A stretch of 64,000 nucleotides of DNA, from the NCBI GenBank assembly GCA_037447655.1, contig JBBHKE010002842.1, positions 186,001 through 250,000 of the forward strand, read 5' to 3'. The stretch comes from Zygnema cylindricum (Eukaryota; Streptophyta; Zygnematophyceae; Zygnematales; Zygnemataceae). Of this stretch, positions 1,268 to 49,664 are shown one piece after another. The translations under genes and the position numbers were made by a program. Numbering within the stretch: the first letter of the stretch is position 1; every line of letters begins with the position of its first letter. Under the pieces are notes generated by a model that had not been told where the DNA came from, made no database searches, and saw nothing but the letters and a program-made list of their open reading frames with translations.

Positions 1268-2461
1268 TGTTGGAATTCAAGTATTTTCTAGGTCTACAGA
1301 TTGCAAAATAAAAAGCAAAATAGTAGATATTGACAGCCTGCCTCTAACTCCTCCTCAAGTCCCCACACTTGTCGCAGTCACTGAAGACTGAAGGAGGAGT
1401 TAGCCATGGCTGCCTGTGCTGTCTAGAGGGAGACAGACAGTTGTTTTATAGGGGGTTTTCTCTAAAAGATAGTTTTGCCAGGTCCAGGATTTGATCCTGG
1501 TACTTGCCACTTGTCACACCCGCAATAGTCGGTAGTCTTATCCAGATAGTCTAAATTGTATTAGATATTATGAGGTATGATATTTATTTAAATAGTTACT
1601 ATAAGAATAATTCATTTAACTAGAACTATATGCATACTGCATAGAAACAGTTGTGGAAAGTACGACGTACGGTACGATTACGAAATAAATACCGCGCGGT
1701 TTGTTTGACGCCGGAAAGAATACCGCGCAGGTATTTATGACGGCCACGATTGAAATCCAAATTTGATCGGACGGCCGCGAAGGATGCCGAGATCGCGGCG
1801 TACGATTTTGGCGGTTTGCGATCACCGCCACATTAAGTGACACGTGGTAACACTACATTGGATTGCGGCAACTCCGGAGATTACGGGAACAAATCCGGAT
1901 ATGACACGTGTCGACATTTTTGCCATGTCGTACAATGGCCGTACATAAAGTACACCGGCACCTGTACTTTTATGTACGATACAGTAATTTGATTGGTGCC
2001 GTACTTCAGTAGATAGAGTTTTAGAGAGGGAATAGGACTTAGATAAATTTTGGGTAGGCAGCTGCCTCTCCCAGAGAGCACCCTGTATAAATGGCAAACT
2101 TTGGCCAGCCATAACTATCAATTTACTTGACCATTTTCAGTGATTCTTTTTGCTGCGGACTCACGGGAGTCTAGGCTACACAGGGGTGTAGTCGGTCAGA
2201 GTTTTTGTCTGCCAGGGTGGCTGTATTTCTAAGGGAAAGTCAAAGTGGGTGAATGTGTCCAAATCTCATATTCTAACTTTGCATTCTGTGGTGGAACTGA
2301 GCACACAGAAAGTGTTATTTCACAGGGGTGAATCTATATTGGGGTTCTGACTGTCAAGGGGTCAGTCACTTGGGTTTATATTAACTTGGAGTCGGCACTA
2401 TCTAGATTGGCTTCTTTTGGATCTGCATACTCTGAGGGCCAATGGAGGTCTCAGAGTTTCA
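1268..2461 (+). repeat. 5' LTR of E1 (LTR type B, 1194 bp)
   Basis: Starts TGTTGGAATT and ends GAGTTTCA. It contains a perfect 12-bp inverted repeat (1344-1355 with 1392-1403) around a 36-nt loop, a tRNA-like segment on the opposite strand whose T-arm-like hairpin is 1484-1500, a TATA box at 2086-2092, and the gag start codon at 2442. The same modules occur in the same order in the other copia LTRs of the window. Confidence 0.95.
2086..2092 (+). promoter_or_regulatory. TATA box of the E1 5' LTR
   Basis: TATAAAT lies about 370 bp before the LTR end, so transcription would start near 2115 and leave an R-U5 region of about 350 bp. The copy in the 3' LTR is at 5261. Type C LTRs have TATAAAA at the equivalent place (48684-48690 and 55776-55782). 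The position fits an LTR promoter; the start site itself is inferred. Confidence 0.6.
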
Positions 2462-3104
2462 GGTTATGGGCCCACCATCTAGGGTGCCTATGTTTGATGG
2501 AACAGGCTTCACGTATTGGGCGTTTACAATAGAGGGATTGCTTTTCGAGAAGCACTTATGGGGAATTGTTGCGGGACAAGTGAGATGTCCGCCACCTAGC
2601 TTTGGAGGAGCTTACTACGGAGAATCATCTGAGACTGTCCAGAATATCACCCGGAGTTCAGATGCAACGGAAGGTGAAGGGAAAAACCTTTCCGTGGATG
2701 GGGAAATAGGGGAGAAGGAAAAAGGGACACCTATGGTGAGGGGAGCTAGGATCTCAGCTATGGTACCACATGTAGGGATTAAAACTGAAGAAAATGACAG
2801 GAAAATATGGGAATACAAAAACACTATAGCAAAACATCTCATACTTAGATATGTGTCTAAGTCGATAGCTATCACTCTTTTAAGTCTAACCAAGTCTTCA
2901 AAGATATGGGAAGCACTTAGTCAGATTTATAAGAGTAAGTCTATTCAGAGGCAGCAATTAGTAAACCAAGAAATAGATGCCTATGATTATAAAGCCGGTT
3001 GCATGATAGAGTTTTGCAATGATATTGCTGCGCTATATGTTGAGCTTGCTAGTGCGGGATATGTAGAATCTGAGGAGAGGAAGATTAATACACTACTGAT
3101 GTAA
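2442..3104 (+). CDS. Copia Gag N-terminal part (E1)
   Basis: A 220-residue frame that starts inside the LTR (ATG 2442) and runs through the primer-binding site. The first residues MEVSEFQVMGPPSRVP are shared with E9 and nearly so with E2, E4, E5 and E11, which fixes the start. It aligns along its length with the other family I Gags, including the WALIEMY-like block that here reads WEALSQIYKS. It is UBN2/retrotran_gag-type particle protein and should form the cytoplasmic virus-like particle. The frame stops at TAA 3102-3104, where sister copies have a Lys codon in LLMKLPDE. The same frame continues unbroken in the next entry, so this is one Gag with a single nonsense codon; readthrough is possible but unproven. 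Confidence 0.85.
   Translation: MEVSEFQVMGPPSRVPMFDGTGFTYWAFTIEGLLFEKHLWGIVAGQVRCPPPSFGGAYYGESSETVQNITRSSDATEGEGKNLSVDGEIGEKEKGTPMVRGARISAMVPHVGIKTEENDRKIWEYKNTIAKHLILRYVSKSIAITLLSLTKSSKIWEALSQIYKSKSIQRQQLVNQEIDAYDYKAGCMIEFCNDIAALYVELASAGYVESEERKINTLLM
2462..2476 (+). other. Primer-binding site of E1, half-tRNA type, inside gag
   Basis: GGTTATGGGCCCACC begins on the base after the LTR. It is the exact complement of the anticodon stem-loop of plant initiator tRNA-Met (GGUGGGCCCAUAACC, from memory of the conserved tRNA), the same region used by Drosophila copia. It is also coding: the ATG at 2466-2468 is in frame with the gag start at 2442 and is gag Met9. Confidence 0.9.
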
Positions 3105-4424
3105 CTCCCAGATGAGTACGAAAACATCATTTATCGTATGCAGGCAATGGATGGCTCCTCATGGACTTGGAGCTTTACCATGGGGATAATTCTTGTGAGG
3201 GAAAGCACTTTGGAGCTTCGTAGGGGAAGTGACAGGGTGAATGCATTTATAGCTGGCGGTGATTGGCGGAATCGTGATGAGAGGAACGGCGGTGACGAGC
3301 GGAAGCGTGATGAGAAGAACGGTGGTGACGAGCGGAAGCGTGATGAGAGAAAGAAAGACAAAGGTAAACCTTATCGGAACTTTGGTGGAAAGAGAGGGAG
3401 AGGAAAAGGCACGGGAGCTTTGAAAAAAGGGGTTTGCTTCTTTTGTAGGGAACCGGGTCATTATATGGAGGAATGCCCTTGTTTGGAAAAACTTAGAAGT
3501 TGGAATGTGGATGAGGAGGACGAAGATGAAGAGGAGAAAGAGGATGAAGAAAAATTGGAGCTTCTTCACATCGGTAGAATGGGGAAGGGAGAAAAGTACA
3601 CAGAAATTGCTCGAAGGCAACAGTGTGCTTTTGGAGGTATAAGGGAAGTAAAGAGAGAAGAGGTACTTGAGGATGTCAAGGAGTGTAGAGTATATGATTT
3701 AGAAATGAGAAAGTCAGATCTAGGATCCATAAGTGAAAACGGGAAAGATAAAATTAATGAGGATAATTTTATACACAATAGGGAAACAGAAAACTGGTCG
3801 GAAAGGGAGACTTCAACGGATTCCGAGGAAAGGGGAGAAGTGAAACTCGAAGAGGTTTTAAAGGATAGGGGAGAAGAGAAATATTTGATTAAAGGTTTAG
3901 GGGAGAAGAAATATTTATTGGGAACTAAATTAGAAAGTAATAGTGGAAAGAATTCCATGGGAGAGAGTGAGGGAAGTTCAGAAAATGGGGTAATTATCAT
4001 GGATAAAAATATGAGTACGAAAGATATAGATCCTATGAGGAACTTAGTGGGGACTAGTGGTTTTTGGGAATATTTGGGGGTGGATGGATTTGACATCACT
4101 ACTTGGTGTGACGAAGATGTGCCTGTAAAAGGGTTAGCATCTAGGTGTATGTTGCAGATTGGAAATGGGGCTGGCTATTTGGATCGCAAGAGGGAAATCG
4201 GTTTGTGTGTGGATGAAAGAGTGATGAAGTGGATAAAATCTTTGCTTGAATTTAAGAAAAATGGGATGTTAAATAAAATGTGTGATATAATTATCATTTC
4301 AGTTCATTTAATGCACTGTGTTAAATACTTAAGTTTTATGAAAGGAAAAGGAAAAAGGAAAAAGAAAAGGAAAAAGGGGAGGGGATGTTTGTTTACTTGT
4401 TTGTGGGAGTTGAAAGAAAAATAG
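3105..4424 (+). CDS. Gag C-terminal part with zinc knuckle fused to pol remnants (E1)
   Basis: Same frame as the preceding gag part; the first ATG is at 3138 (428 residues from there). The order is: rest of the capsid-like region; a lysine/arginine/aspartate-rich stretch with a 30-bp in-frame repeat (GGDERKRDE units, about 3285-3350); a CCHC knuckle (CFFCREPGHYMEEC); an acidic stretch; then segments that match, in order, small pieces of the related pol: RVYDLEM (integrase end), YLLGTKLE and GVIIMDKNMS (after RT), and ITTWCDED with WIKSLLEF (RNase H). Protease, integrase core and RT catalytic motifs are all absent. It ends in a lysine-rich tail followed by TAG and the polypurine tract. The frame has stayed open despite the deletions. 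A nucleic-acid-binding Gag variant is the likely product. Confidence 0.75.
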   Translation, partial: LPDEYENIIYRMQAMDGSSWTWSFTMGIILVRESTLELRRGSDRVNAFIAGGDWRNRDERNGGDERKRDEKNGGDERKRDERKKDKGKPYRNFGGKRGRGKGTGALKKGVCFFCREPGHYMEECPCLEKLRSWNVDEEDEDEEEKEDEEKLELLHIGRMGKGEKYTEIARRQQCAFGGIREVKREEVLEDVKECRVYDLEMRKSDLGSISENGKDKINEDNFIHNRETENWSERETSTDSEERGEVKLEEVLKDRGEEKYLIKGLGEKKYLLGTKLESNSGKNSMGESEGSSENGVIIMDKNMSTKDIDPMRNLVGTSGFWEYLGVDGFDITTWCDEDVPVKGLASRCMLQIGNGAGYLDRKREIGLCVDERVMKWIKSLLEFKKNGMLNKMCDIIIISVHLMHCVKYLSFMKGKGKRKKKRKKGRGCLFTCLWELKEK

Positions 4425-4442
4425 ACTAGAAAATAAGGGGAG
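4425..4442 (+). other. Polypurine tract of E1
   Basis: A purine-rich run ending AAGGGGAG lies directly before the TGTTGG start of the 3' LTR, where plus-strand synthesis is primed. All family I elements here share the ACTAGAAAATAAGGGGAG ending, which also carries the pol stop codon TAG. Confidence 0.8.
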
Positions 4443-5636
4443 TGTTGGAATTCAAGTATTTTCTAGGTCTACAGATTGCAAAATAAAAAGCAAAATAGTA
4501 GATATTGACAGCCTGCCTCTAACTCCTCCTCAAGTCCCCACACTTGTCGCAGTCACTGAAGACTGAAGGAGGAGTTAGCCATGGCTGCCTGTGCTGTCTA
4601 GAGGGAGACAGACAGTTGTTTTATAGGGGGTTTTCTCTAAAAGATAGTTTTGCCAGGTCCAGGATTTGATCCTGGTACCTGCCACTTGTCACACCCGCAA
4701 TAGTCGGTAGTCTTATCCAGATAGTCTAAATTGTATTAGATATTATGAGGTATGATATTTATTTAAATAGTTACTATAAGAATAATTCATTTAACTAGAA
4801 CTATATGCATACTGCATAGAAACAGTTGTGGAAAGTACGACGTACGGTACGATTACGAAATAAATACCGCGCGGTTTGTTTGACGCCGGAAAAAATACCG
4901 CGCAGGTATTTATGACGGCCACGATTGAAATCCAAATTTGATCGGACGGCCGCGAAGGATGCCGAGATCGCGGCGTACGATTTTGGCGGTTTGCGATCAC
5001 CGCCACATTAAGTGACACGTGGTAACACTACATTGGATTGCGGCAACTCCGGAGATTACGGGAACAAATCCGGATATGACACGTGTCGACATTTTTGCCA
5101 TGTCGTACAATGGCCGTACATAAAGTACACCGGCACCTGTACTTTTATGTACGATACAATAATTTGATTGGTGCCGTACTTCAGTAGATAGAGTTTTAGA
5201 GAGGGAATAGGACTTAGATAAATTTTGGGTAGGCAGCTGCCTCTCCCAGAGAGCACCCTGTATAAATGGCAAACTTTGGCCAGCCATAACTATCAATTTA
5301 CTTGACCATTTTCAGTGATTCTTTTTGCTGCGGACTCACGGGAGTCTAGGCTACACAGGGGTGTAGTCGGTCAGAGTTTTTGTCTGCCAGGGTGGCTGTA
5401 TTTCTAAGGGAAAGTCAAAGTGGGTGAATGTGTCCAAATCTCATATTCTAACTTTGCATTCTGTGGTGGAACTGAGCACACAGAAAGTGTTATTTCACAG
5501 GGGTGAATCTATATTGGGGTTCTGACTGTCAAGGGGTCAGTCACTTGGGTTTATATTAACTTGGAGTCGGCACTATCTAGATTGGCTTCTTTTGGATCTG
5601 CATACTCTGAGGGCCAATGGAGGTCTCAGAGTTTCA
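4443..5636 (+). repeat. 3' LTR of E1 (type B, 1194 bp)
   Basis: Same length as the 5' LTR, with three differences seen (T/C near 1498/4675, G/A near 1718/4893, G/A near 1982/5157). It ends GAGTTTCA at 5636, followed by CTTCC. Its terminal ATG (5617) reads out of the LTR into the interrupted E2 LTR for 79 codons. That frame is only a by-product of the LTR-borne gag start. Confidence 0.95.
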
Positions 5637-6209
5637 CTTCCGTACACAAAAGTACAGTTGTCGGTGTACTTTCTGTACGGACACTGTACGACATGCCCTA
5701 AATGTCGACACGTGGTATAACCGGATTTGCTCTCTTAATCCTTGGAGATGTCGCGATCCAATGATATTTTGCCACGTGTCATCCGATGTGGCGATGGCCA
5801 AAAATCGCCGAAATCCTCTTCCGCGATCTCGGCATTCATTCCGGCCGTCCGATTAAATGCACATTTAATCGTAGCCGTAATAAATACCTGAGCAGTATTC
5901 GTTTTTGCTATTTAAACAAATGCGCGGTACATGTTTCTTGTCCTTACCTTGATTCGTACTTTTACATTCCTGGATCTATGTATCCCGTAAACAGTTTCAG
6001 TTAAATGAATTATCCTACGTGGTAATATTTAATTAAATATCAAACCATATAGTATGTATCACTAGTTCTAGACTTAACGGATAAGGCTACTGGCTATCGA
6101 CTGTTCACCGTCCGGCAGGTACCAGGATCAAATCCTGTATGCTGCATATATCTTTTTGTTAGATTTCCTAGAAATCCGGGATTCGGCATGTCCCACACTT
6201 AGGAAAATT

Positions 6210-6280
6210 GAGCCGGCCAGGGTTCGAACCTGGGACCTTTCACTTCAGCTCCGAACGCACTACCACTGTGCCACCAACTC
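6210..6280 (-). other. tRNA-like cloverleaf in TRIM LTR, copy 1
   Basis: On the minus strand 71 nt fold by eye as a tRNA: 7-bp acceptor stem (GAGTTGG with CCGGCTC, two G-T pairs), D-stem GCAC/GTGC, an anticodon stem only partly paired around loop AGCTGAA, a 5-nt variable loop, and a perfect T-arm CCAGG-TTCGAAC-CCTGG. The internal Pol III A box (TGGCACAGTGG) and B box (GGTTCGAACCC) are good matches. Position 33 is G rather than U, so I do not call it a decoding tRNA. Confidence 0.75.
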
Positions 6281-6429
6281 GATGTTGAGACTGGCGGGTC
6301 CGTACCCATTTATTACGCGCGGCTCGAGTATGGATATTTCCATATTCTACCCCGTATTGGACCGGCTTCACGTGCCAATCCAACACTCCCCCTCACGGGA
6401 AAGCCGGTCAAACCATCTGCAATCCCGCT

Positions 6430-6442
6430 GGCTCCGATACCA
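6430..6442 (-). other. TRIM primer-binding site
   Basis: TGGTATCGGAGCC on the minus strand, immediately after the LTR end ATCTAACA. It complements the acceptor end of initiator tRNA-Met, with G at position 8 where the angiosperm consensus has A. The gypsy primer site at 45602 has the same G. Confidence 0.85.
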
Positions 6443-6495
6443 TGTTAGATTTCCTAGAAATCCGGGATTCGGCATATCCCACACTTGGGAAAATT

Positions 6496-6566
6496 GAGCC
6501 GGCCAGGTTTCGAACCTGGGACCTTTCACTTCAGCTGCAAACCCACTACCATTGTGCCACCAGCTC
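6496..6566 (-). other. tRNA-like cloverleaf in TRIM LTR, copy 2
   Basis: The same 71-nt structure as 6210-6280 in the other LTR. The acceptor stem GAGCTGG/CCGGCTC has only one G-T pair. The D-stem is slightly weaker (GCAC/GTGG) and the T-loop reads TTCGAAA. The differences between copies are scattered, as expected from independent decay after insertion. Confidence 0.72.
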
Positions 6567-7034
6567 GATGTTGAGACTGGCGGGTCCGTACCCATTAATT
6601 ACGGGCGGCTCGAGTATGGATATTTCCATATTCTACCCCGTATTGGACCGGCTTCACGTGCCAATCCAACACATTTTAGTAAATAAACCCCTAACGGTAA
6701 ATAAACTAAAATATTTCCCGTAAACCTCTGGAGAGCCTAGGTAGCCATGGCTCTAGCTTCCTCTCCAATTTCTCAGTGACTGCGACAAGTTTGAGAGTGG
6801 GAGAGAGAAGTTAGAGGTAGACTGCCTCGGCTTTTTCTATATTTCTATTTAGACCTAGAAAATACTTAAAAACGACCGTTAATTTCTACACTCCCCTTAT
6901 TTTCTAGTCAATCTTTAATTACAGACCACACTTCTCCCTGCAGAAAATTAGCTTAGGGGAAAGCACAGGTTTGGTCATCATATCTGCTACCATCTCACTA
7001 TCTGGTCGGTACTTTAAATTGATTGTTTTGTTTT

Positions 7035-7952: not shown

Positions 7953-10784
7953 TTAGCTTATCCGGATATATTCCAGACCGGCAAGAAACTCATCAAGCTT
8001 CTTATTCCACTGTGGAGGCGCCTGTTCCAAACCATAAAGAGATTTAATCAGCCGGCATACTTTACTCTCCTCCCCTTCCTCCACAAATCCTTCGGGTTGT
8101 CGCATGAAGATCTCCACTTCTAATTCTCCATGCAAGAAGGTTGTCTTGATGTCGATCTGGTGCACCTCCATGTCTTCCGCCGCTGCCAGACTGAGAAGTA
8201 TGCGGACGAAGGGAAATCTGACAAACGGGGCAAAGGTTTCCTCGTAGTCAATTCCCTCTTTTTCTGTAAATCCCTTTGCCACTAATCGGGCCTTGTAGCG
8301 CTCAATCGTGTTATCTGGGTTCAGTTTTAATTTGAAAACCCACTTACCACCGATTCGTTTCCGGTTAGGTGGACAATCCACCAGCTCCCAAGTATCGGCT
8401 GCCATAATTGAGGCCATCTCCTCATTGATGGCTGTCTTCAACAAGTTCATTTCTGAACAAGTCATCGCCTCTCCATAAGTCTGAGGTTCATCTTGATGAG
8501 ATAGTTCTGTTACCTTGTGATTAACCTGTTTTTCTTGCAATCTTTTGCTACTTCTCCTTCCCCCCTCAAAATCTGAGGCTGGAATAAATGGTTCTCGTGG
8601 ATTCTTTCGAACAAACTCGGTTTCTCCCCTATCCCTTGATTCCGAATCAATTTCCACCACGTCTTCCGCTTCGGGTAGAGTTGTCACTGGAGTTTCCACA
8701 GCTGAGTCCTTTTCGGTCTGATTTGTACATGCAAGAATGTCATCTTCTCTAAAACCTGGATAGTTAGGAAGCTTAAAGTCATCACAATTTTCTGACTCAA
8801 ATCTGATTTTTACTGACTTTGTATATTTGAAGGGATCCACAGACTTTCCTTCATCCATAACTACTAGATGCTTTACTAAGATTATATCTTCCCTTTTTAG
8901 ATCATAAACTCTATATCCTTTAACATCCTCATCATATCCTAATAAGTATCCCAGTTTTCCTTTCGGATCTAGCTTCCAGTTAGACCGATCTGTATCTAGA
9001 CTGAATACTTGACTGACGAAAACATTTAAGTGAGATATGTCTGGTTTCCGGCCTTTCCATCTCTTATAAGGTGTTTGATCTTTTATAGCTGAAGTAAGAA
9101 CTCTATTTTTGAGGTAATTAGCACAGTTCATTGCTTCTTCCCAAAACCTTTTTCCTATCTTTTTATCTGACAACATACTTCTAGCACTATCACTTAGTGT
9201 TCTATTTAACCTTTCAGCTACCCCATTCTGTTCCAAGTTTTTTAGGACTGTCTTTTGGTGTTGGACTCCATCTTCCCTCATAAAATCCACAAATTGGTTA
9301 GAAGTATACTCTCCACCATTCTCACTCCTTACTCTCTTAATTGGAGTTTCATGGAGTTTTTCGCTCCATGCTTTATATTGTCTAAAACAATCTTGAGCTT
9401 CTGACTTGTTTCTCAAAAAATACACCCAGGAATACCGAGACCAATCATCAGTGATAGTCATCATAAATCTCTTCCCCCCCGGTAAGGGCACTTTAGTTGG
9501 TCCCCAAATATCTGTGTGTACTAGATCTAGAATTTTTTCTCCCTTATAGATGGCTGTTATAGGAAAGGGTAATTTGTGTGCTTTACCTTGAGCACATCCA
9601 CTAAAATCACTTATATTATCACACTCACTGAACTTAATCCCTTCCACCACTCCCATCTTTTTCATCTCTCTTAACTTGTCTAGATTCACATGCCCAAGCC
9701 TCTTATGCCACATCATAATATCATGAACACCAGCATAATAAAGTTTCTTCGTTTCATTACTTAAAACCAGCCTAAACATCCCATGGCTACCTTTCTCAGC
9801 ATTGAAATAGACATCCTTTTCAAAACTAACAGTAAAGACTCCTTCCCTAGTGTTAGTGAAAAAACCCTTATCATCTAATACAGATGTAGAGATGAGGTTT
9901 TTGTTCAGCCCCGGAATAAACAATACATCGGAGAATGTTACTATAGATGTATTTCCTTCTACTAGCACTTTCAGATCTACCAATCCTACAAGAGTAGTAG
10001 TGACTATCCTCCCATCCCCGTACTCTATCTCTACGGTGGGAATCTTTCTTATCTTAGTGAACAGGTGTTTATCCTTACACATGTGCATGGAGGCACCTGA
10101 ATCTATAAACCTGCCTGCTTCACCTTTCAATCCACCGTAAACATATTTCTGCCTTCGTGGAATTTCGACCTCGTTTTTCGCCTCCAACTCCTCATCCAAT
10201 AGGAGCTCATCATCCTCGTCCTCAGATTTTGCCTCATGCACCTGTGTCACAAAGGCCTTTTTCTTTCCTCTCGGGGTTCCACCAGTCTGCCCCTCCTTTA
10301 ACCGAAGCTCGGTTAGCTTAGTGCACTCTGCCATATAGTGCCCAGGATTTTTACAAAAATGACATAAACCTTTGGGAGCCGTTGGTCTGAACGCGTCGGT
10401 CTGATTTTTCTGCTCCCTCCCCCCATAGTTTCCGACCAGTTTTCGGGAATCCTTGTTCCTCCAATCGGTCGCAGTTGCTAAGGCTTGGCCACTCTTTCCT
10501 CCCATTCGGATCTCAATCGTATTCTCCCGAACGAAAATCATCCCTACCACTGAGTTCCATATCCACCTTGAGTCCGGCAAGTCCTGCACACGGTTGACTA
10601 TGTTCTCGAACTCATCGGGTAACTTCATCAGTAAACAGTTAACCTTTTCTTTTTCACTAAAATCTTTTCCCGCACTCTCTAGCTCCATGAAGAGTGTAGC
10701 AAGCTCATTGCAAAATATTCCCCCCTTTGTATACATATTGTTTAACTTTTTGATCAGCCAACTGTTCTTGTTGAATCGTACCAC
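7953..10784 (-). pseudogene. E2 Gag-Pol: zinc knuckle, protease, integrase, RT
   Basis: The longest frame in the window (943 codons). Domains in order: last third of Gag (CNELATLFMELE onward); CCHC knuckle (CHFCKNPGHYMAEC); aspartic protease (FIDSGASMHMC); GAG-pre-integrase and zinc region (WHKRLGHVN then SGCAQGKAH, the first Cys of the CxxC pair replaced by Phe); integrase core (HTDIWGP, then RSENGGEY where Asp is expected before NGGE, then EQNGVAERLNRTL); a serine/acid-rich linker with GGRRSSKRLQEKQ; and RT (KWVFKLKLNPDNTIERYK, IDIKTTFLHGELE, SLYGLEQAP). The first 15 or so residues are out of the Gag frame because of a frameshift near 10725. The integrase Asp-to-Glu change would probably inactivate it. 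Protease, integrase and RT order is that of copia, not gypsy. Confidence 0.93.
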
Positions 10785-11253
10785 TTCGGTACATCTCTAT
10801 GAGAGCCATCCACAGATCGGATGCCCTTTCTACCTGCAAATGAAGACATGCAAGTCCTTGAGTGAGATGGCGTAGGATGAAGTGATTTGCCGCCATATTG
10901 TTGAAGTCCTAGGTTTCAGTATCATTCTCCTCGTGCCTCAGAATAGGTGACATGAATGCTGAAGCAGTTGCTATTGGTGTGGTCCTCTCCTTCTCCGCTC
11001 CTTTGTCCACCACCTCTCCTTCCTTTGTCTCCTCCGTTGAAGATGGATCTGCTTTCTTTGTGAATATGCTTCCTCCAAACGTTGGAGGGATTCCAAGACT
11101 TGATGGACGCCCCAATCGTCCACTCACTATCCCCCAAAACCTTTTTTCGCATAAAGCTCCTATCATTATACTTTCCCAGTATATGAAGCCAGTTCCATTA
11201 AATATTGGTACCCTAGAGGGTGGGCCCATAACGTGAAACTTTGAGACCTCCAT
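10705..11253 (-). pseudogene. E2 Gag N-terminal part
   Basis: Starts at ATG 11253 to 11251 inside the 5' LTR with MEVSKFHVMGPPSRVPIFNG and reads through the primer site. Codon TGG is now TAG at about 10909 (NDTET then DFNNMA). The same frame continues to about 10705 (FILRHLTQGLACLHLQVERASDLWMALIEMY), after which it shifts into the frame of the large pol. This is the particle-forming Gag. Apart from the one stop and one shift the sequence is intact and matches E4, E5 and E9 closely. Confidence 0.9.
11219..11233 (-). other. E2 primer-binding site, half-tRNA type
   Basis: CGTTATGGGCCCACC on the minus strand, directly after the LTR end TTTCA. It has 14 of 15 matches to the complement of the plant initiator tRNA-Met anticodon arm, with a mismatch at the first base, which E4 shares. 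The internal ATG is in frame with gag. Confidence 0.85.
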
Positions 11254-24388: not shown

Positions 24389-25252
24389 CGTTATGGGCCC
24401 ACCCTCTAGTTTACCCATCTTCAATGAAAATGGCTCCATATACTGGAAGAGTATGATGATAGGAGATCTATGTGAGAAAAGTTTTTGGGGGATAGTCACT
24501 GGACGAGTGAGGCGTCCATCCAGTGTAAGTTTTCCTCCAAGGTTTGTAGGGACCAGGTTTACGAAAAGGGCAAATCGAGCTCCACCTGAAGAGAGTGAGG
24601 ATGGATATAGTATTGTGATGGACAAGGGGAAAGAAAAAGTGACAATCACACCGATCGCAACATCTATAGCGAGCGGATTGGCTTTCATGTCACCTGTTTC
24701 GAGGAATGAGGAGAGTGATATTGATACATGGGATTACGATAACATGGCGGTAAAACACTTCATACTTAGCCATCTTACTCAAGGACTTGCATCACCTTAT
24801 TTGCAGGTAGAAAAGGCATCCGGTCTTGGGTGGCTCTCATAGAGATGTACCAAAGTGGTACAATTCAGCAACAACAGTTGGATGATCAAAAAATAGATGC
24901 ATATGTATACAAAAGGGGGACGATGTTGGATTTTTGTAATGAGCTCACAACACTTTTCATGGAGCTAGAGAGTGCTTGAAAAGTAGAAACTGGAAAAGAA
25001 AAGGTTAAGTGCTTGCTCATGAAGTTACCTGTTGAGTTGAAGAATATAGTTAACCGAGTGCACGATTTGCCGGACTCAAGGTGGATATGGAATTCCGTGG
25101 TAGGGATGATTCTTGTTCAAGAGAATATGAAAGAGATCCGAATGAGAGGAAAGAGTGGGCAAGCTTTGGCAGCCAGGACCGATTGGAGGAACAAGGATTC
25201 GAGAAAATCAGTCGGAAACTATGGAGGGTCAGTCCGATGAGTCGGGACCGAG
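24369..25252 (+). pseudogene. E4 Gag
   Basis: ATG in the LTR, then MEVSQLHVMGPPSSLPIFNE and 157 open codons. A frameshift near 24825 moves the WMALIEMY-like block to another frame, one TGA interrupts at about 24977, and the frame continues from 25013 (LLMKLPVELKNIVNRVHDLP) to about 25240. Same Gag as E2 and E9. Nothing beyond decay separates it from them. Confidence 0.85.
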
Positions 25253-30436: not shown

Positions 30437-31180
30437 GAATCTATAATCTAGCCTGCTTCACCTTTCAATCCACCGTAAGCACATTTCTGCCTTCGTGGAA
30501 TTTCAACCTCATTTTTCGCCTCCAACTCCTCATCCAAAAAGGAGCTCATTGTCCTCGTCCTCGGATTCCGCCTCAAGTACCTGTGTGACAAGGGCCTTTT
30601 TTTTTCCTCTCGGGGTACCACCGGTCTGCTCCTCCTTTAACCGAAGCTCGGTTAGCTTAGTGCACTCTGCCATTTAGTGCCCCGGTTACTTACAAAAATG
30701 ACATAAACCTTTGGGAGCCCTTGGTTCGAACTCGTTAGCCTGTTTTTTCTGCTCCCTACCCCCATAGTTTCCGACTAGTTTCCGGGATTACTTGTTTCTC
30801 GAATCAGTCGCTGTTGCCTCCATATTGTTGAAGTCCCACGTTTCAGTATCATTCTCCTCGTTCCTCGGAATAGGTGACATGAATGCCGAACCAGTTGCTA
30901 TTGGTGTGGTCGCCTCCTTCTCCCTTCCTTTGTCCACCACCTCTCCTTCTTTTGTTTCCTCCGTTGAAGGTGGATCCTCTTTCCTGGTGAATCTGCTTCC
31001 TTCTTATCCTGGAGGAATTCCAAAACTTGATGGGCGCCCCAACCGTCCACTCACTATCCCCCAAAACCTTTTTTCGCATAGAGCTCCTATCATCATACTT
31101 TCCCAGTATATGAAGCCAGTTCCATTAAAGATTGGTACCCTCGAGGGTGGGCCCATAACCTGAAACTCTGAGACCTCCAT
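30437..31180 (-). pseudogene. E5 Gag with a large internal deletion
   Basis: Starts at ATG 31180 to 31178 in the LTR with the family I N-terminus. Between NNM (about 30820) and ATATD, roughly 390-400 bp present in E2 and E9 are missing, taking out the central capsid region including the WMALIEMY block. The downstream CCHC region survives with stops. Not functional. Confidence 0.85.
31146..31160 (-). other. E5 primer-binding site, half-tRNA type
   Basis: GGTTATGGGCCCACC on the minus strand, directly after the LTR end TTTCA: 15 of 15 to the complement of the plant initiator tRNA-Met anticodon arm, identical to E1 and E9. Confidence 0.9.
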
Positions 31181-33460: not shown

Positions 33461-33778
33461 CTCCCCTTATTTTCTAGTCACTTTTATATTTAATACCACA
33501 CTTCTCCCTGCATAAAATGAGTTTAAAGGAAGGCAATGGTTTGTGATCCCATTTGGTACCATCTCACTATAAGGTCTATACTCTAAACTGATTATCTTGT
33601 TTTCTACTTTTTCTCTAACAAAGCTAAGTCTAATGTCCATATGTTTTTCTTTAAAGTGGTGGTTAGGATTCGCAGAAATGGCAATGGCTGCCTAATTATC
33701 ACAAAACACTTTTTTAGATATCACTCTTAAGATGACCAAACTCACATAGCAAGGACTTGTCCCACATTAATTCTTTTT
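33461..33778 (-). pseudogene. E7 RNase H tail, truncated
   Basis: The minus-strand end of a family I pol (KHHFK- and RLSFVREKVENKI-type sequence, with the CDNQ position now carrying a stop). At about 33778 it switches within a GAGGCTG word to family II sequence, a non-homologous junction. Confidence 0.8.
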
Positions 33779-33939
33779 GAGGCTGGAATTGTTGGATCCG
33801 TAGGTTGCCGCCGAGGAGGAGGTGGTGGAGGAGGAGGAGGATTCTCCACAAGGGGAATAGCCGAAGGGTCCAAAGTGGGACTAGAAGAAGCGAGAGGAAC
33901 ACTTTCAAAAATAACATATTCTTTGATTTTGGAATCTTT

Positions 33940-35342
33940 TTAAAAATCTGTCATACCAAAAACATCTACCGATCTGCTCTCTTCTTTAACCTGAATATAT
34001 CTAGCACTCTGAAGAGTATTCCTATCCCTATTAAATACTCTATAGCCCACGGATTCATCATCATAACCCATAAAAATTCCTGGAATCGATTTTTGACTAA
34101 GCTTAGATATAGGGAGATTATCCAAAATAAAACATTTACTCCCAAAAACTCGGAAGTGACTAACATTCGGTTTTCTTCCGGTCCACACTTCATATGGTGT
34201 TTTCCCTTTTACTGCTCTAGTCTCTATTCTATTTCTAATATACGACGCACACGAGAAAGCTTCACCCCAAAATTTGAAATCTATTCCTTTATCTAGTAAC
34301 ATAGATTTTGCACTCTCTGTTAGAGTTCAGTTGAGTCTTTCGGATACTCCATTCTGTTCCGGAGTATAACGAACTGTAAATTGCCGAGAAATGCCATTGT
34401 CTTTTAAATATTCAGAGAATGTATGAGAAATATATTCCCCTCCGTTGTCGGACCGAAGGGAAAGGATCGGTTTCCCATGAAGTTTTCGGCCCATACCCGA
34501 AAATGCTTGAAGTGAGTGAGCACTTCACTCTTTTCTTTCATAAAGTAAACCTTGCTATATCTTGAGAAGTCATCCGTAAAAGTGACAAAAAACCGGTTGC
34601 CACTGAGTGAAGGAACTTTTGATGGCCCCCACACATCCGAATGATTAATTTGCAGCAAATCCGTTGCCCGGTTATCCGCTGTCTGAGGTAGTGGCAGCTT
34701 ATGAAGTTTTCCCAAAGCACATCCATCACATACATGGGAATCTGTTTGTCCTAATTTAACACCATCTATCATATTTTGCTTTACCATTTTATCAAGCCTT
34801 TCATGATGAACATGACCGAGCCTCTTATGCCACAATACATTTTCCGGAAGGACACTAGAGTATGCAAAGTCAATTTCATTAGCCAAGTCCATCCGGTACA
34901 ACAAGTTTGGGCCTCTAGTTCCTACCAAAGCTACCTTCCCATCTTTGCTTACTACCTTTTTCCCATTCTTTTGTAAAATTTCAAAACCTTTCATTTCTGC
35001 TACCGAAGTGGAAAACAATTTTTTTGTAAACTTTGGGATATAGAGAACATCATGCAAGGTTCTCTTTACAATCCGACCATTGATGTCACATGCTAACTCC
35101 ACTCTTCCCTTTGCCGTAGCCTTCACAACGCTATCATCCGCGTAATAAATCCGACGAGTGGGAGTTGGAGTAAGTGTTTTGATGTAAGCCTGGTTGCCGC
35201 ACATGTGGGAGGAGCATCCGGAGTCCATAATCCATCTGTTCTCTCGAGGTCCCTCCATGAGATCTTTTGCAAGAGCAAAGTACTCGTCATCATCCGATTG
35301 CGGAAATCTGACCACATCTTTCTTTTCTTCCGGTCGTTCATC
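33940..35342 (-). pseudogene. E8a protease and integrase (family II), truncated
   Basis: Protease WIMDSGCSSHMC, pre-integrase and zinc region (WHKRLGHVHHERL, CDGCALGKLHKL), and catalytic HSDVWGP. A frameshift near 34480 then hides SDNGGEY, and 33940-34302 resumes with LLDKGIDFKFWGEAFSCA and the DDESVGYRVF block. After a proline run (about 33815-33850) the element is cut at 33779. RT and RNase H are missing from this copy. Confidence 0.88.
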
Positions 35343-36245
35343 TTATGACGTCTCATCAAATGCAAGGAATGCGGCATTTTTAATCGGCAGTTTTGATGTC
35401 GGAAATTTTGGTGATGAATCCTCCGATCGCACCCTCCATCCCGCACGATAAATTCCTGTTTCACATGCTTTTATAAATGCCGGACACAGCCCGAAAACAT
35501 GACCTTGGCCAAAGCAATAGACACACCTATCATATTGCTTATAATTCGGATTGGGGGTAAAGTTTCTATTTCCAGAAAAACCAGCCGGCTTATATGTCTG
35601 TGCATTGTAAACAATCACTGATTGACCACCATTTAATGCTATCTGAGTTGCCTCATCGTCTAGGATATAAGCCTGAGCTACTGCTATATTCCATTTACTC
35701 TTCTCTAACCATCTTAGCTGCTCCGCTGCTCCTCTATATTTAGTAGGAGGCCCTCTCATTAGAATCATAGCTTGATGATAAGGAGGAAAACTCCCCCCGA
35801 AACATGCATTCTCCGATAATAAAAGTTTCAAGCCATTACAATATGAGTTCATGTCACCCCTAGTATATTTATAGTCCCAAATTTTTCCAGAAGTAACAAC
35901 CTCATTCTGCTCACTAGCTAAGACATAAGATTCACTCAAGGCCTTCCATATTTCAGATGCTGTAGAGATATTGATATATATCATGTTAAGATCTTCTGAC
36001 AAAAGTAACTTCAACACATGCAATGCATCTTCATTTTTCTTCCCAAACTCAGGATCCGTATTTGGAAGAATACTCGAAATCACATCATATAATTTCACTT
36101 GTTTCAAATAAGACTTAGACAAATCCGCCCAATAAAGATACTTTTGCCCATTAAACACCGGGATCCGTGAGGGAGGGCCCGTAACCTGTTGATTTGAGGC
36201 AGCTGGTGCCACTGAAGAAGATGAAGAAGCACCGGCAGTTGCCAT
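35343..36245 (-). pseudogene. E8a Gag (copia family II)
   Basis: The start used here is ATG 36245 (MATAGASSSSSVAPAAS), inside the LTR; the frame is open to 36293. The N-terminus then crosses the LTR/primer-site boundary as QVTGPPSRIPVFNG, homologous to QVMGPPSRVP of family I. Downstream are a capsid-like region, an asparagine-rich stretch, and a CCHC knuckle (CVYCFGQGHVFGLC). The frame ends at TAA 35343-35345, but the same frame continues into protease, so one nonsense codon separates Gag from Pol. Family II is a distinct lineage with a different Gag body. Confidence 0.88.
36172..36186 (-). other. E8a primer-binding site, half-tRNA type with two changes
   Basis: GGTTACGGGCCCTCC on the minus strand, abutting the LTR. 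13 of 15 to the complement of the initiator tRNA-Met anticodon arm. It encodes VTGPP, parallel to VMGPP of family I, so the overlap of primer site and Gag is shared by both families. Confidence 0.75.
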
Positions 36246-37197
36246 GATAATCAATTGTGCAAAGAGGAAACTCTCACGAAATCCCACAAACAACCAACTT
36301 CACAATGAAGCCCCAAACATACCAAACACACCCTAAGTCTGCAAATTTGCCACAATATAAAATATACACCAAAAAACCCATATGCAGAATTTCACAAAGT
36401 TATGCCAAAAGATCACAATGATCTTATAATTCAAACACACCCAAAAACTGCTTCGCAGTTTTTCATACACAACAACCCTACTTCTCTTAAAGTAATCTAA
36501 GTCCTATATATACAAGTGAGCCTACAGTTGATCACACCATACTACAACTAGCGTGGTCAATTGGTACACTACTTCTTCATTAACAAAATCCCACCGTCGA
36601 ATGCACATAATTATTTACACCAATCAAAAAGTCGCTAGAAATGAAATAGTACGCGGTTAAAGTTCGTCCGCTGAAGTGACACTACAGTCAATACTTCTCT
36701 TCAAAAATGACGGCGGACTTCGTCCGCTTTCCACGTATTCTTTCATCACCGAAGATGAACCTTCACGTGTAACTTTGGTCCTCAAATGTAACTGTACCTT
36801 TCCTTCTAGAACAACCAAACTTGACTTTCTCACGGACCGACACGTGTGCCTGAAGTGCACCGAATCTGTGTACTCCCTTTCGAGTTACATACTCACTAAA
36901 TCATGTCCCCGTCAATTTATCTTCACACAAACTGACTCATATTCAGAACACCTTTCTTGCGATGACTGCTATAGCTGCTATGACTCTGCTATGAGTGTTA
37001 TGACTGCTATGATTGCTATGATCTGACAGCGCAGCTGTGATATTAGAGCAGCGCAGCTGCGATGTCAGATCAGAGCAGCATAGCAGCACAGCAACAAGTG
37101 TAGAGTGCTCAAGGTTTCTAGTTGCGATGTCAGACTTAGCGCAGCATGGTAGTATAGCAGCAAGATATAGAGAGAACTCAAGGTTTCCAAAACAACA
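36187..37197 (-). repeat. LTR of copia family II (1011 bp), shared by E8a and E8b
   Basis: Minus-sense start TGTTGTTTTGG at 37197, directly after the polypurine tract of E8b, and end AAATCAACA at 36187, directly before the primer site and gag of E8a. Its 5-bp termini TGTTG/CAACA are perfect inverted repeats. It serves as 3' LTR for one copy and 5' LTR for the other. An AGCAGCGCAGCTGCGATGTC-type short-repeat patch lies at about 36960-37110. Confidence 0.9.
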
Positions 37198-37220
37198 CTC
37201 CCCTAAACCTTTAGACTCTC

Positions 37221-38516
37221 TCAGCCACTGAGTCTACATTCCTCTCTACAGAACTTCAACTTAGGTGCAGGTAAAGACTTAGTCATCATATCTGCTACCA
37301 TCTTCTCATCCGGAAGATAACTTAGCTTTAAAATTCTGTTCATCACCTTTTCTCTTACAAAATGCAGCTTGATGTCAATGTGCTTGCTTTTGAAAAGATG
37401 ACTCGGGTTGGATGCAATCGCAATAGCTGCTTCGTTGTCACACCACACTATTTGAGGTTCGGATTGCATAAAATGAAGTTCTTGGAGGAGCGACTTCACC
37501 CATAGTAACTCCTTGACAGCTGAGCTTGCTGCCATTTATTCAGCCTCCATTGTAGATTGAGCTGTTACCTTTTGAAGCTTGCTGCTCCAGCACCATGTTC
37601 CTGTTCCAATCTTCAAAATGAATCCAGTGGTGGAACGGCGGCTTGGCATGTCTCCATAGCTAGCATCGGTCCATGTCTGAATTTTGACTTCATCTCCACC
37701 GAGAGCAAGTTTAAGATTCCGTGTTCCTGCAAGGTACCGAAGAACCCTCTTTGCGGCCTCCCAATCTGTTTTTTCTTAGATTTTGCAAACTTCGACTCAA
37801 AGCGCCAACTGCTGCCGCAATATCCGGCCTTGTGCAGTTCATGAAGTAAATTAGGCTACCAACAATCTGTCGGTATAGAATGGTGGCCATAAAATCTGCC
37901 TCCCGTGACTCCAAGGTATCGTCAAAAATGATTCCTCCATCGATCTCTATGCCTTCCACTTTCTACTTAAATTCCATGGGAGTTGCACTTCCGTTTGCCT
38001 CAGCCATGCCAAAATTTTCAAGCACATTTCCTATCGCTTCACGTTGCGTTAGATGGATTGTTCTCCTATCTCTATCCCTTTCTACTTGAATTCCAAGAAT
38101 ATACTTTGCCTCACCTAAGTCCTTCATCTCAAATCTTGAATTCAAGGCTGCCTTTATTTTGTTAATTTCATTTAATGACTTACTTAACAACAGCAAATCA
38201 TCTACATGTACCGCAATGTACATAATCCCATCTTTCCCTTCCATAACATAGACTGAGTGATCTGAGCTAATCCTGACGAATCCTATACTGGTAAGAAACT
38301 CATCTAGTTTTAGGTTCCACTGCCGTGGAGCCTGCTTCAAACCATACAGGGATTTCAACAGTTTACAGACCATATTTTCTTTTCCATTCTCTTCATACCT
38401 TTCAAGCTGCTTCATATAAATTACTTCCTCTAAATCTCCATGCAAGAAAGCTGTCTTAACATCCATTTGATGTAGTTCCATATTCTCAATGGCCGCTAAG
38501 GATAACAAAATTCTAA
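37221..38516 (-). pseudogene. E8b RT and RNase H (family II)
   Basis: 38508 to 37963: VKTAFLHGDLEEVIYMKQ, SLYGLKQAPRQW, and catalytic motif HVDD (Tyr changed to His), ending at a stop after TPMEFK. 37959 to 37711 continues with the MNCTRPDIAAAVGALSRSL block. 37535 to 37221 is RNase H (AASSAVKELLWVKSLLQEL, CDNEAAIAIASNPSHLFKSK) with tail MMTKSLPAPKL and stop. The polypurine tract follows. A frameshift falls in the DW-AAKR region (about 37770). Confidence 0.9.
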
Positions 38517-40045
38517 CAGGTGGAAACGGACAACCGGAGAGAAAGTCTCTTCATAGTCAATTCCCTCCTTCTGACTATAGCCTTACGCAACAAGCGTAGC
38601 CTTATATCTTTCAATAGAGTTATCTGGATTCAACTTTACTTTAAAGACCCACTTACAGCCGATGGCTTTTCGGTCTGGTGGAAGCTCCACAAGCTCCCAA
38701 GTTTGAGCCTCCATTATCGATCGCATTTCATCGTTAGCCGCAGCGATCCATTGATCTTTTTCCGGAGCTGAAAAGGCTTATTGTATTGTGACCGGTTCCA
38801 TCATGCTGGAAGATAATAGAGCAGTTTTACAGCTTCGCAATTTTGCAGCGTCGCAGCTTTGCAGCTTCGCAGCGTCGCAGCTTTGCAGCTTCGCACCATC
38901 GCAGCTTTGTAGTTTCGCAACGTCGCAGTTTTCAGTCAGATCCAGTGATCCGACAGAAAATAGCGCTGCTTCGTAGTGTCCCAGCCTGCTGCTTTGCCTT
39001 TTTCCCCTCGGAAAATCTGAGGCTGTAATTGTTGGATTTGTAGGTTGCCGCCGAGGAGGAGGTGGTGGAGGAGGAGGAGGATTCTCCACAAGGGGACCAG
39101 CCGAAGGGTCCAAAGTGGGACTAGAAGAAGCGAGAGGAACACTTTGAAAAATAACATATTCATTGATTTTGGAATCTTTTTCAAAATCTGTCATACCAAA
39201 AACATCTACCGATCTGCTCTCTTCTTTAACCTGAATATATCTAGCACTCTGAAGAGTATTCCTATCCCTATTAAATACTCTATAGCCCACGGATTCATCA
39301 TCATAACCCTTAAAAATTCCTGGAATCGATTTTCGACTAAGCTTAGATATAGGGAGATTATCCAAAATAAAACATTTACTCCCAAAAACTCGGAAGTGAC
39401 TAACATTCGGTTTTCTTCCGGTCCACACTTCATATGGTGTTTTCCCTTATACTGCTCTAGTCTCTATTCTATTTCTAATATACGACGCACACGAGAAAGC
39501 TCCACCCCAAAATTTGAAATCTATTCCTTTATCTAGTAACATAGATTTTGCACTCTCTGTTAGAGTTCGGTTGAGTCTTTCGGATACTCCATTCTGTTCC
39601 GGAGTATAAGGAACTGTAAATTGCCGAGAAATGCCATTGTCTTTTAAATATTCAAAGAATGTATGAGAAATATATTCCCCTCCGTTGTCGGACCGAAGGG
39701 AAAGGATCGGTTTCCCATGAAGTTTTTTGGCCCATACCCGAAAATGCTTGAAGTGAGTGAGCACTTCACTCTTTTCTTTCATAAAGTAAACCTTGCTATA
39801 TCTTGAGAAGTCATCCGTAAAAGTGATAAAAAACCGGTTGCCACTGAGTGAAGGAACTTTTGATGGCCCCCACACATGCGAATGAATAATTTGTAGCAAA
39901 TCCGTTGCCCGGTTATACGCTGTCTGAGGTAGTGGCAGCTTATGAAGTTTTCCCAAAGCATATCCATCACATACATGGGAATCTGTTTGTCCTAATTTAA
40001 CACCATCTATCATATTTTGCTTTGCCATTTTATCAAGCCTTTCAT
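38517..40045 (-). pseudogene. E8b integrase and linker (family II)
   Basis: 40028 to 39447: the zinc region with CDGYALGK (Cys to Tyr), HSHVWGP (catalytic Asp to His), SDNGGEY and [13 protein letters not shown] intact. A stop at 39447 is followed by frame 39428 to 38778, GRKPNVSHFRVF to a proline run, SDFPRGKRQSSRL, and then a 24-30-bp in-frame repeat tract (next entry). The start of RT (38517-38777) has stops. At 40045 the coding is cut and 25 bp of the same family's LTR start follow, so gag, protease and most of the 5' LTR were deleted. Confidence 0.88.
38830..38945 (-). repeat. In-frame short tandem repeat in E8b linker
   Basis: At least four units of CAGCTTCGCAGCGTCGCAGC-like sequence on the plus strand encode, on the minus strand, repeated KLQSCDAA-type octapeptides. 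It is absent from E8a only because that copy is cut before this point, so I cannot tell whether it is family-wide. Confidence 0.8.
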
Positions 40046-40175: not shown

Positions 40176-40975
40176 ATGGAGGTCTCAGAGTTTCAGGTTA
40201 TGGGCCCACCCTCTAGGGTACCAATCTTTAATGGAACTGGCTTCATATATTGGGAAAGTATGATGATAGGAGCTCTATGCGAAAAAAGGTTTTGAGGGAA
40301 GTGAGTGGACGATTGGGGCGTCCATCAAGTCTTGGATTTCCTCCAGGGTTTGAAGCAAGCAGATTCACAAAGAAAGAAGGTCCATCTTCAACGGAGGAGA
40401 CAAAGGAACGAGAGGTGGTGGACAAAGGAGCGGAGAAGGAGACAACCACACCAATAGCAACTGGTTCAGCATTCATGTCAACTATTCCGAGGAACGAGGA
40501 GAATGATACTCAAACTTGGGACTTCAACAATATGGCGGCAAAGCACTTCATCCTACGCCATCTGACGCAAGGACTTGCATGTCCTCATTTGGAGGTAGAA
40601 AGGGCATCCGATCTTTGGATGGCTCTCATAGAGATGTACCGAAGTGGTACGATTCAGCAACAACAGTTGGTTGATCAGAAAGTTAACGAGTATGTTTACA
40701 AACGGGGGAAGATGTTGGATTTTTGCAATGAGCTTGCTACACTCTTGAGGAAGCTAGAGAGTGCGGGAAAAGATTTTAGTGAAAAAGAAAAGGTTAACTG
40801 TTTACTGATGAAGTTACCCGATGAGTTCGAGAACATAGTCAACCGTGTGCAGGACTTGCCGGACTCAAGGTGGATATGGAACCCAGTGGTAGGGATAATT
40901 CTCGTTCACGAGAATACGATTGAGATCCGAAGGGGAGGAAAGAGTGGGCAAGCCTTGGCAACTGCGACCGATTAG
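40176..40975 (+). pseudogene. E9 Gag
   Basis: ATG 40176 in the LTR, MEVSEFQVMGPPSRVPIFNG, then a break at CEKRF (about 40290), where a changed base run gives a stop and a frame change. 40250-40975 carries the rest open: GRLGRPSSLGFPPGF, NNMAAKHFILRHLTQGL, SDLWMALIEMYRSG, LLMKLPDEFENIVNRVQDLP. It ends at a TGG-to-TAG stop in ATDWRNK. The most complete family I Gag body in the window. Confidence 0.9.
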
Positions 40976-45601: not shown

Positions 45602-45614
45602 TGGTATCGGAGCT
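45602..45614 (+). other. Gypsy primer-binding site
   Basis: TGGTATCGGAGCT complements the acceptor end of initiator tRNA-Met (usual plant form TGGTATCAGAGC), one base after TTTACA. This is a different tRNA region from that used by the neighbouring copia elements. Confidence 0.82.
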
Positions 45615-47865: not shown

Positions 47866-48904
47866 TGTTGTAATTAATAGATTTCTAGATTATTTTCTAG
47901 GTTTAAATATGTTAGTATAAAAGGAAAAGAAAAGGACAGACAGCTTGCCTCCACCTCCTCTCTCTAGTCCCCATACTTGTTGTAGTCAATGAAGGATAAA
48001 GAGGGTGGTGGATCCATGGATGCCTTTGTTCAAAAGGCAGTTATTTTTAGTAGGTTACTAAAAATATACCTGACGAACCTTGGATTTGATCCCGGTACCA
48101 GGCGTCCGGCAAATTGGTCGATAGCGGTTAGCTTTATCCTATTAGACTAGGACCAATGCTTAATGCTGTAGTATATGATACATGTATATTTATTTAGGAG
48201 GGAACAAATTCATTTAACTGAAACTCTATACGACATACATAAATATAGTTTTTATAATGTACGAAGTACGATACTACTTTGAAACAGATACCGCACATTT
48301 TGTTTCGATAGAAAAACAAATATCACGCAAGTATTAATAACTGTTAAGATTGCATTTCGAGTCGAATCCAACGGCGCACATCAGCGCTGAAATCCTGGAA
48401 CAGTCACTTTCGCATTTAGTGACGTGGCATGATCAGGCGCCACATGGAGAGATAACATTCGGTAGCGCGAATTCCGAAGAACGTACAGACGAGTGAAAAA
48501 TGGACACGAGTCCGCTTAATGGCCTTGTCGTGCAAAGGTCGAACAAAAAGTACATCGGCGATAGTACTTTTATGTATTGTACAGTATTCCGATTGGTTCG
48601 AACAGTTAGTAGATAGAGGTTGTGATAGGGAGCTAGGACTTGGAAATATCTGGTAGATGATCTTCTCTCTTTTTGAGAGGATGTATAAAATTGGCATTTT
48701 GCCGGCTTGTAACTTATCGCCTGGTTGGGCCTTTTCAGAGATTATTTTTCCTACGGACTCAGAGGAGTCCACGCTGCACAACGAGGCATTTAGATTGTTT
48801 GCTTTTCTGCTTGGGTAGCACTGGTTGCCATTGAAAGTGGGTTAGTGAATAACTATCTAGAAGCTTCCTGTACTATGTAGTCCAATGGAGGACACAGAGT
48901 TTCA
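47866..48904 (+). repeat. 5' LTR of E11 (type C, 1039 bp)
   Basis: Starts TGTTGTAATTAATAG and ends ACACAGAGTTTCA. It carries a hairpin of CCACCTCCTCTCTCTA with TAGAGAGGGTGG type (in this copy partly mutated), an antisense tRNA-like segment, TATA box 48684-48690 and gag ATG 48885. The same LTR type is found alone at 22207-23237. Confidence 0.92.
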
Positions 48905-49664
48905 GGTTATGAGCCCACCCTCTAGGGTGCCTACCTTCAATGGATCTAGGTTCATCTATTGGGAAGCCATGATGATGGGAGCTTTGTGTGAAAAACGATA
49001 CTGGGGTATCGTCAGTGGACAAGTGAAATGTCCACCTTCGGGAACTCCACCAGGATTTTGAGGAGTAAGGTTTCTTGTTGCAACGGCTGCCTCAGTGGAG
49101 GAGGCACATGATGGGGACATCAGTGTGTCAGAAAAGGGGAAACGGAAGGAGACACCCCTTACTCCTATTGCCACAGTACCAGGAGCGGGGACCGTGAAGA
49201 CCGCGGAGAACGATACTCAAATGTGGGAGGATGTAAACATGGCTGCCAAGAACTTCATTCTGAGGCACCTCACTCAAGCTTTGGCCACCCCTCATCTTCA
49301 CATTTACAAGGCCGAGGAGTTGTGGGTGAGTTTAGTGGAAATTTATAGAGCTGGAACCATTCAAGAGCTTTAGTTGGCTGAGCAAAAGCTAGTGAGTTAC
49401 ACTTACAAAGGAGGAAAGATGTTAGATTACTGTAATGATCTCTCTTGTTTGTATATGGAGATGGAAAGTGCCGGGTGGACACGTACAATGAAAATGAAAG
49501 TTAACATCCTTATCATGAAGTTACCTGATGAGTGCGAAAACATAGTATACCCAGTACAACAAATGCCTGATAGTTCATGGAAATGGAACACAGTGGTCAA
49601 GATAATACTTGTGCAGGAAAACACAATGGAGATTAGGAGAGAAGAAACAGCATTCAAGCTCTAG
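48885..49664 (+). pseudogene. E11 Gag
   Basis: A single frame from ATG 48885 with two in-frame stops: TGA 49059-49061 and TAG 49371-49373 (at a Gln position). Blocks: YWEAMMMGALCEKRYWGIVS, NMAAKNFILRHLTQAL, ELWVSLVEIYRAGTIQ, LIMKLPDECENIVY. It then runs out of frame near 49664 before the knuckle. Confidence 0.9.
48905..48919 (+). other. E11 primer-binding site, half-tRNA type
   Basis: GGTTATGAGCCCACC, 14 of 15 to the complement of the initiator tRNA-Met anticodon arm, abutting the LTR. The ATG at 48909 is in frame with gag ATG 48885, exactly as in E1, E4 and E9. Confidence 0.88.

Follow-up and report, generated by a model that had tools for sequence, protein, structure and literature searches.

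A probable half-tRNA-Met primer-binding site that would also be gag coding sequence in Ty1/copia elements of Zygnema cylindricum

The Ty1 and Ty2 retrotransposons of yeast have their gag AUG in the LTR and their primer site inside gag. To our knowledge, there are few elements in which experiments have elucidated how one half of a tRNA primes reverse transcription. Judging from its length, the Ty5 frame may also overlap its LTR, and Ty5 would then be a precedent for the layout described here. The primer site of Ty1 is worded as lying within U5 in the part of PMC5371799 that was available, and Ty1 is primed from the native 3' end of the tRNA, which sets it apart from the Zygnema elements.

According to the available text of PMC1181622, Hemivirus of the Pseudoviridae (copia, 1731, Ty5 and Osser) shares with the Zygnema elements the copia domain order and a tRNA-half primer from the anticodon arm, the 3' end of which is at nucleotide 40. 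The Zygnema elements differ in having the gag AUG in the LTR and the primer site within gag codons. Half-tRNA-Met primer sites are likewise described in PMC6317226 for plant copia elements, namely for Osser, Bryco and part of Gymco-II. These are of the same type, a likeness of description rather than of a reverse transcriptase tree, and the sections seen of that source say nothing of gag starting within the LTR. The fungal element Copia-28_PHord and the fungal Helenus TRIMs have the anticodon loop of tRNA-iMet as their predicted primer, with no mention of gag overlap in the accessible portion of PMC10886601. A literature search of incomplete coverage, at the level of listings, found no description of an LTR gag start together with a half-tRNA site. 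What is reported here is mostly known as a priming mode, which occurs in plants; a gag frame that begins in the LTR, combined with a primer site within gag, is an uncommon layout.

The window, that is, the whole 64-kb stretch of Zygnema cylindricum DNA that was analysed, contains the following features of these elements.

1268..2461, plus strand: 5' LTR (TG...CA) of E1, bearing the gag AUG; 99.75% identical to 4443-5636, with the TSD CTTCC on both sides
2442..2444, plus strand: predicted gag AUG inside the LTR, at -20; first in-frame ATG in 6/6 family I copies
2462..2476, plus strand: putative half-tRNA primer-binding site of E1, equal to gag codons 7-12; 15/15 bases against host tRNA-Met bases 25-39
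4432..4442, plus strand: polypurine tract of E1, AATAAGGGGAG, immediately before the 3' LTR
4443..5636, plus strand: 3' LTR of E1, from the 99.75% identical LTR pair with TSD CTTCC
7953..10796, minus strand: part of the gag-pol frame of E2, in copia domain order by Pfam domains
11219..11233, minus strand: putative primer-binding site of E2, base 1 G to C; the 5' LTR begins at 11234, TSD TGAGC
24389..24403, plus strand: putative primer-binding site of E4, base 1 G to C, by complementarity to tRNA-Met
31146..31160, minus strand: putative primer-binding site of E5, exact, by complementarity to tRNA-Met
36172..36186, minus strand: putative primer-binding site of E8 (family II), two mismatches, with ACG as the Met codon
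36187..37197, minus strand: LTR of E8, with the gag AUG at 36243-36245 inside; polypurine tract and TGTTG start, CA end
40196..40210, plus strand: putative primer-binding site of E9, exact, by complementarity to tRNA-Met
47866..48904, plus strand: 5' LTR of E11, sharing 88.6% identity with the copy that ends at 55997; TSD CTATG
48905..48919, plus strand: putative primer-binding site of E11, base 8 G to A, by complementarity to tRNA-Met

LTRs of the TG...CA type with a 5-bp TSD were confirmed for E1, E2 and E11, the last two of which also retain both LTRs (TSDs TGAGC and CTATG, respectively). The LTR/site junctions of E4, E5 and E9 were placed mainly by homology to other copies. The LTR of E8 was deduced from the polypurine tract and TGTTG at 37197 and from CA at 36187, and self-comparison showed no second copy of it within the 64-kb window. 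In E2, Pfam reports Retrotran_gag_2, Pol_BBD, gag_pre-integrs, rve, SH3_retrovirus and RVT_2, in this order, which confirms the copia arrangement of integrase before reverse transcriptase (RNase H was not reported). E1 is a young non-autonomous copy from which most of pol is missing, its youth following from the 99.75% identity of its LTRs. The internal part of E1 (2462-4442) is just 1981 bp long and holds gag, a charged stretch and, by eye, an apparent RNase H remnant. E8 (33778-40045) resembles a tandem made of the pol of one copy, one LTR (36187-37197) and the gag of a second copy; 33778-34804 and 39018-40045 are 97.7% alike.

The initial annotation had described seven 15-base sites complementary to the anticodon arm of a plant initiator tRNA-Met, and re-examination of the window bears out all of their coordinates and mismatch counts. 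E1, E5 and E9 are complementary at 15/15 bases each, and in E1 the complementarity extends to 16 bases. The single mismatch lies at site base 1 in E2 and E4 and at base 8 in E11, and the two mismatches of E8 lie at bases 6 and 13. When one mismatch is tolerated, the 12-mer GGTTATGGGCCC matches the window seven times, always at these sites, where a first-order model predicts 0.17 matches; the seven sit in related copies and are not seven independent events. As defined by the LTR pair and the TSD, the E1 site directly follows the last base of the 5' LTR. The best match to a tRNA acceptor end near the junction in E1, E5 and E9 amounts to 9/12 bases inside the LTR at -16, and the idea of a former acceptor site at the LTR end was left aside as too weak. 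E2 (11233) and E4 (24389) both have G to C at site base 1, yet the two elements are only about 78% alike.

The host tRNA agrees with the proposal, and the refutation named in the initial annotation, a host initiator tRNA-Met whose anticodon arm lacks the sequence, did not come about. Searching the genome with the anticodon arm turned up six places that match exactly and a seventh with a single mismatch, besides more distant matches; these seven places make up the host tRNA set. In six of the seven, GGTGGGCCCATAACC is intact in the anticodon arm, and bases 25-39 of the initiator tRNA-Met are the exact complement of the site. ARAGORN finds a tRNA-Met with the anticodon CAT in 6/7 places; the exception, L103, is also the one place without an unchanged GGTGGGCCCATAACC. 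The 3' end of the primer would be sequential base 39, which is standard nucleotide 40. We take the 15-mer of the tRNA to be plant-like in sequence. The published human initiator is one base off the host 15-mer (PMC8274982, in the part seen), and this difference fits a plant host. The likening of the site to that of Drosophila copia stands as regards its placement at the LTR junction, its register and its match to the host tRNA, but the site is less exotic than this likening implied, having already been described in plant copia lineages (PMC6317226, in the sections available).

The sites had also been claimed to overlap gag, and a frame does run from the LTR ATG through the site in 7/7 window copies, some of which have stops further along. 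The first in-frame AUG lies inside the LTR, at -20 in family I and at -59 in E8. If gag starts there, the primer site would be translated as Gln-Val-Met-Gly-Pro (QVMGP). The in-frame AUG (Met9) expected opposite the CAU of the primer is present in the six family I copies and in most of the genome sample, but E8 has ACG instead.

A genome search, which the initial annotation had proposed, was run on the assembly (352.8 Mb in 2,689 contigs) with the exact 12-mer GGTTATGGGCCC. It gave 7,407 matches (3,755 + 3,652) versus 11 (5 + 6) for the reversed control. The Zygnema genome offers thousands of matching sites together with the host tRNA genes. The first 60 of about 100 matches listed, out of the 7,407, were taken as a sample and represent 56 distinct contexts; as all of them, L044 included, were selected by the exact 12-mer, conservation of those bases is testable only in the six related window copies. 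CA directly precedes the 12-mer in 49/56 contexts (CT, TA or GA in the remaining 7), and the gag motif is found in the predicted frame in 49/56. By eye, L053, L086, L090, L093 and L094 are gag-like with stops or shifts; L044 and L072 are not gag-like. Three gag families have the same layout, with the LTR AUG at -20, -26 and -56/-59 in the same phase.

Flank was sufficient in 23 match rows. A second LTR copy is present in 14 of these (13 distinct elements), and for nine none was found in the fetched stretch. The LTR repeat reaches the last base before the site in 11/13 paired elements, and perfect 5-base TSDs were seen by eye in 7/13; the second LTR copy of L048 is 175 bp only. L044 has the 12-mer, LTRs that are 98% alike and a perfect TSD, yet no recognisable gag frame. 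In L038 the LTRs are 99.8% identical, and the frame, which contains copia domains, is 1441 codons long. A pattern search of viral_contigs gave 29 matches, none with a copia match by tblastn; one 479-aa reverse transcriptase query found no relatives in viral_contigs, and a PDB sequence search gave no match.

These observations make it very probable, as far as sequence comparison goes, that a Ty1/copia lineage of Zygnema uses the 5' half of the host's initiator tRNA-Met as its primer, at a site that would also serve as gag codons. The initiator tRNA-Met would be cut after sequential base 39, by analogy with copia and Ty5, and its 5' half would pair with the 15-base site. The reverse transcriptase would then extend the 3' end of this half through U5, the minus strand beginning at the last LTR base. 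As happens in other LTR elements, the tRNA would serve as template for the site during plus-strand synthesis. Were the site renewed in this manner, the host tRNA would help to write gag codons 7-12 in every cycle. Translation would start from the LTR AUG and continue across the site. Because the site lies in frame after the LTR AUG, primer docking and gag coding would be combined in one stretch, and the overlap makes this dual service in translation and priming testable.

The LTR end next to the site may itself be affected by this arrangement. CAGAA in U5 and TTATG in the site form an imperfect hairpin with 7 bases between them. A change of GAA to TAA at -8, the first base of gag codon 5, produces CATAA/TTATG, a perfect five-base inverted repeat, and a stop in that codon. 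Position -8 is a mutational hotspot: 16 changes fall on it in a tree of 49 copies (43 from the genome and 6 from the window) built from their flanks, and 5/16 LTR pairs differ there. TAA occurs at -8 in 6/49 sampled family I copies and in 171 genome copies with the exact 12-mer (control, 1). G to C at -8 is found next to the site in L054, L065 and E4 (window 24381), for which the hairpin offers no explanation.

We tentatively suggest, at slightly less than an even chance, that the site templates the G-to-T change at -8 during reverse transcription or later, perfecting the hairpin and writing the gag stop. This model would explain which base changes, at which place, in which LTR and in which subfamily, because T perfects the inverted repeat. 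Only slightly less probable is the reading that TAA at -8 stems from ordinary decay through methylation, from inheritance of a variant or from an artefact of assembly polishing. The base does lie in a CHG context (CAG), and in the undirected samples A at -8 is found in both groups, in 6/45 site-adjacent LTR ends and 9/32 others; G-to-T, however, is a transversion. The p-values given here are guides only, since the copies are related. The same samples have T at -8 in 6/45 site-adjacent ends versus 0/32 others (p = 0.038) and T or C in 9/45 versus 0/32 (p = 0.0086). T is confined to copies in which -7/-6 are AA (6/24, versus 0/25 with AG; p = 0.0096). The last comparison argues for templating; a p of only 0.038 for T alone and the three G-to-C cases favour a non-templated origin.

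Inheritance is opposed by the other LTR of the same elements. T was found at -8 in 0/11 3' LTR ends of TAA elements (10 have G and L115 a one-base deletion), nine of these ends having been fetched and assigned to their elements by distance and orientation only. The 11 ends are those of L038, L039 and L111 (one of 8 small regions) and of 8 of 20 regions; 5/8 small regions and 12/20 regions held no 3' end. In L108 and L110, the latter among the 171, the LTRs again adjoin a site and carry T. The two LTRs of L038 differ at 2/1049 bases, one of which is -8; this, too, speaks against a non-templated change. If templating by the site is correct, the change would arise where the LTR borders on the site, and a primer site in coding sequence would carry a built-in mutational cost, many new copies being born or becoming gag-dead by way of the primer site itself. 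An LTR-specific change at -8 could mark a particular reverse transcription step.

The site and the codons on its two sides evolve differently in the six window copies, the counts from these related copies being a description and not a formal test. LTR codons 1-6 have 5.0 silent changes over 44.2 silent site-pairs, site codons 7-11 have none over 48.3, where the downstream rate predicts about 20, and codons 12-33 have 84.6 over 205.0. In codons 12-33 the gag frame gives a pS of 0.413 and a pN of 0.173, compared with 0.164/0.245 and 0.230/0.227 in the shifted frames. In LTR codons 1-6 the pN is 0.106 versus a pS of 0.113. As silent changes are few in comparison with codons 12-33, the site and the LTR end appear to be held at the nucleotide level, and LTR codons 1-6 show this constraint without constraint at the protein level. 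On the tree of 49 copies, changes at the three positions of LTR codons 2-6 number 31, 14 and 15. The periodicity contrast between these and later codons (p = 0.009) falls to p = 0.23 without one hotspot, and coding periodicity was for this reason dropped as an argument against the LTR AUG.

A conserved gag AUG inside the LTR, a Ty1-like feature, is confirmed, and its use as a start may be proposed. It has undergone 2 changes on the tree versus 20.6 expected from -45..-21 and 13 from -14..-1, in copies that were picked by likeness to an ATG-starting 20-mer, with 13/62 excluded (12 that belong to other families or are unclear, plus L060, in which the ATG is shifted out of frame). Gag may instead start at the site AUG (Met9), the initiator tRNA using the same AUG as start and primer site and the LTR AUG being bypassed by leaky scanning; this we consider improbable. 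In 42/49 copies the base at -3 of the LTR AUG is a pyrimidine, and the site AUG has the better Kozak context, with G at -3 and +4 as dictated by the tRNA complement. This context is present in 5/6 window copies (E11 has A at +4) and belongs to the search word for the 43 genome copies. The lack of protein-level constraint in LTR codons 1-6 also fits a start at the site, as do the 171 genome copies with a stop upstream of it and L038, in which a stop follows the LTR AUG ahead of the site and 1441 codons are open from the site AUG. The stop is, however, absent from the 3' LTR of L038, so that its parent probably had none, and from 11/11 3' LTR ends of stop-bearing elements; moreover, the LTR AUG is conserved and the site codon of E8 is ACG. 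The L038 stop was rejected as proof of a site-AUG start, the 3' LTR having GAA and the stop being probably new.

We favour the LTR AUG as the gag start, with leakage to the site AUG possible, but do so with reserve, because LTR codons 1-6 are without protein-level constraint and the context of the site AUG is better. The N-terminus of Gag would be MEVSEFQVMGPP if the LTR AUG is used, and MGPPSR alone if the site AUG is used.

It is scarcely credible that the tRNA match results from conservation of the gag peptide QVMGPP, with the true primer site elsewhere: the closely related peptides QVMGPP, QVMGPH and QVTGPP do recur in three gag families, but the site codons of the six window copies have no silent change against a pS of 0.413 downstream (the value is low, 0.113, in LTR codons 1-6 too), the site begins exactly at the LTR end, L044 keeps the site without a gag frame, and no good acceptor-end match is found near the junction.

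Two other elements of the window have primer sites of the acceptor-end type. A TRIM at 6157-6672 (minus strand) has two LTRs of about 230 bp (95.7% identical), each containing a stretch that resembles tRNA-Gln(CTG), a purine-rich tract and the acceptor-end primer site TGGTATCGGAGCC. It fits the published Helenus type, for which the table of PMC10886601, in the part seen, names only Selaginella among plants. From 45602 onward, directly after the 3' LTR of E9, an acceptor-end primer site, TGGTATCGGAGC, is followed by what looks by eye like a Ty3/gypsy-like gag. The acceptor-end site at 45602 is matched by the end CTCCGATA of two host tRNA variants, L098 and L101. One tRNA is apparently used in two priming modes, by its acceptor end in the TRIM and the Ty3-like element and by its anticodon arm in the copia elements.
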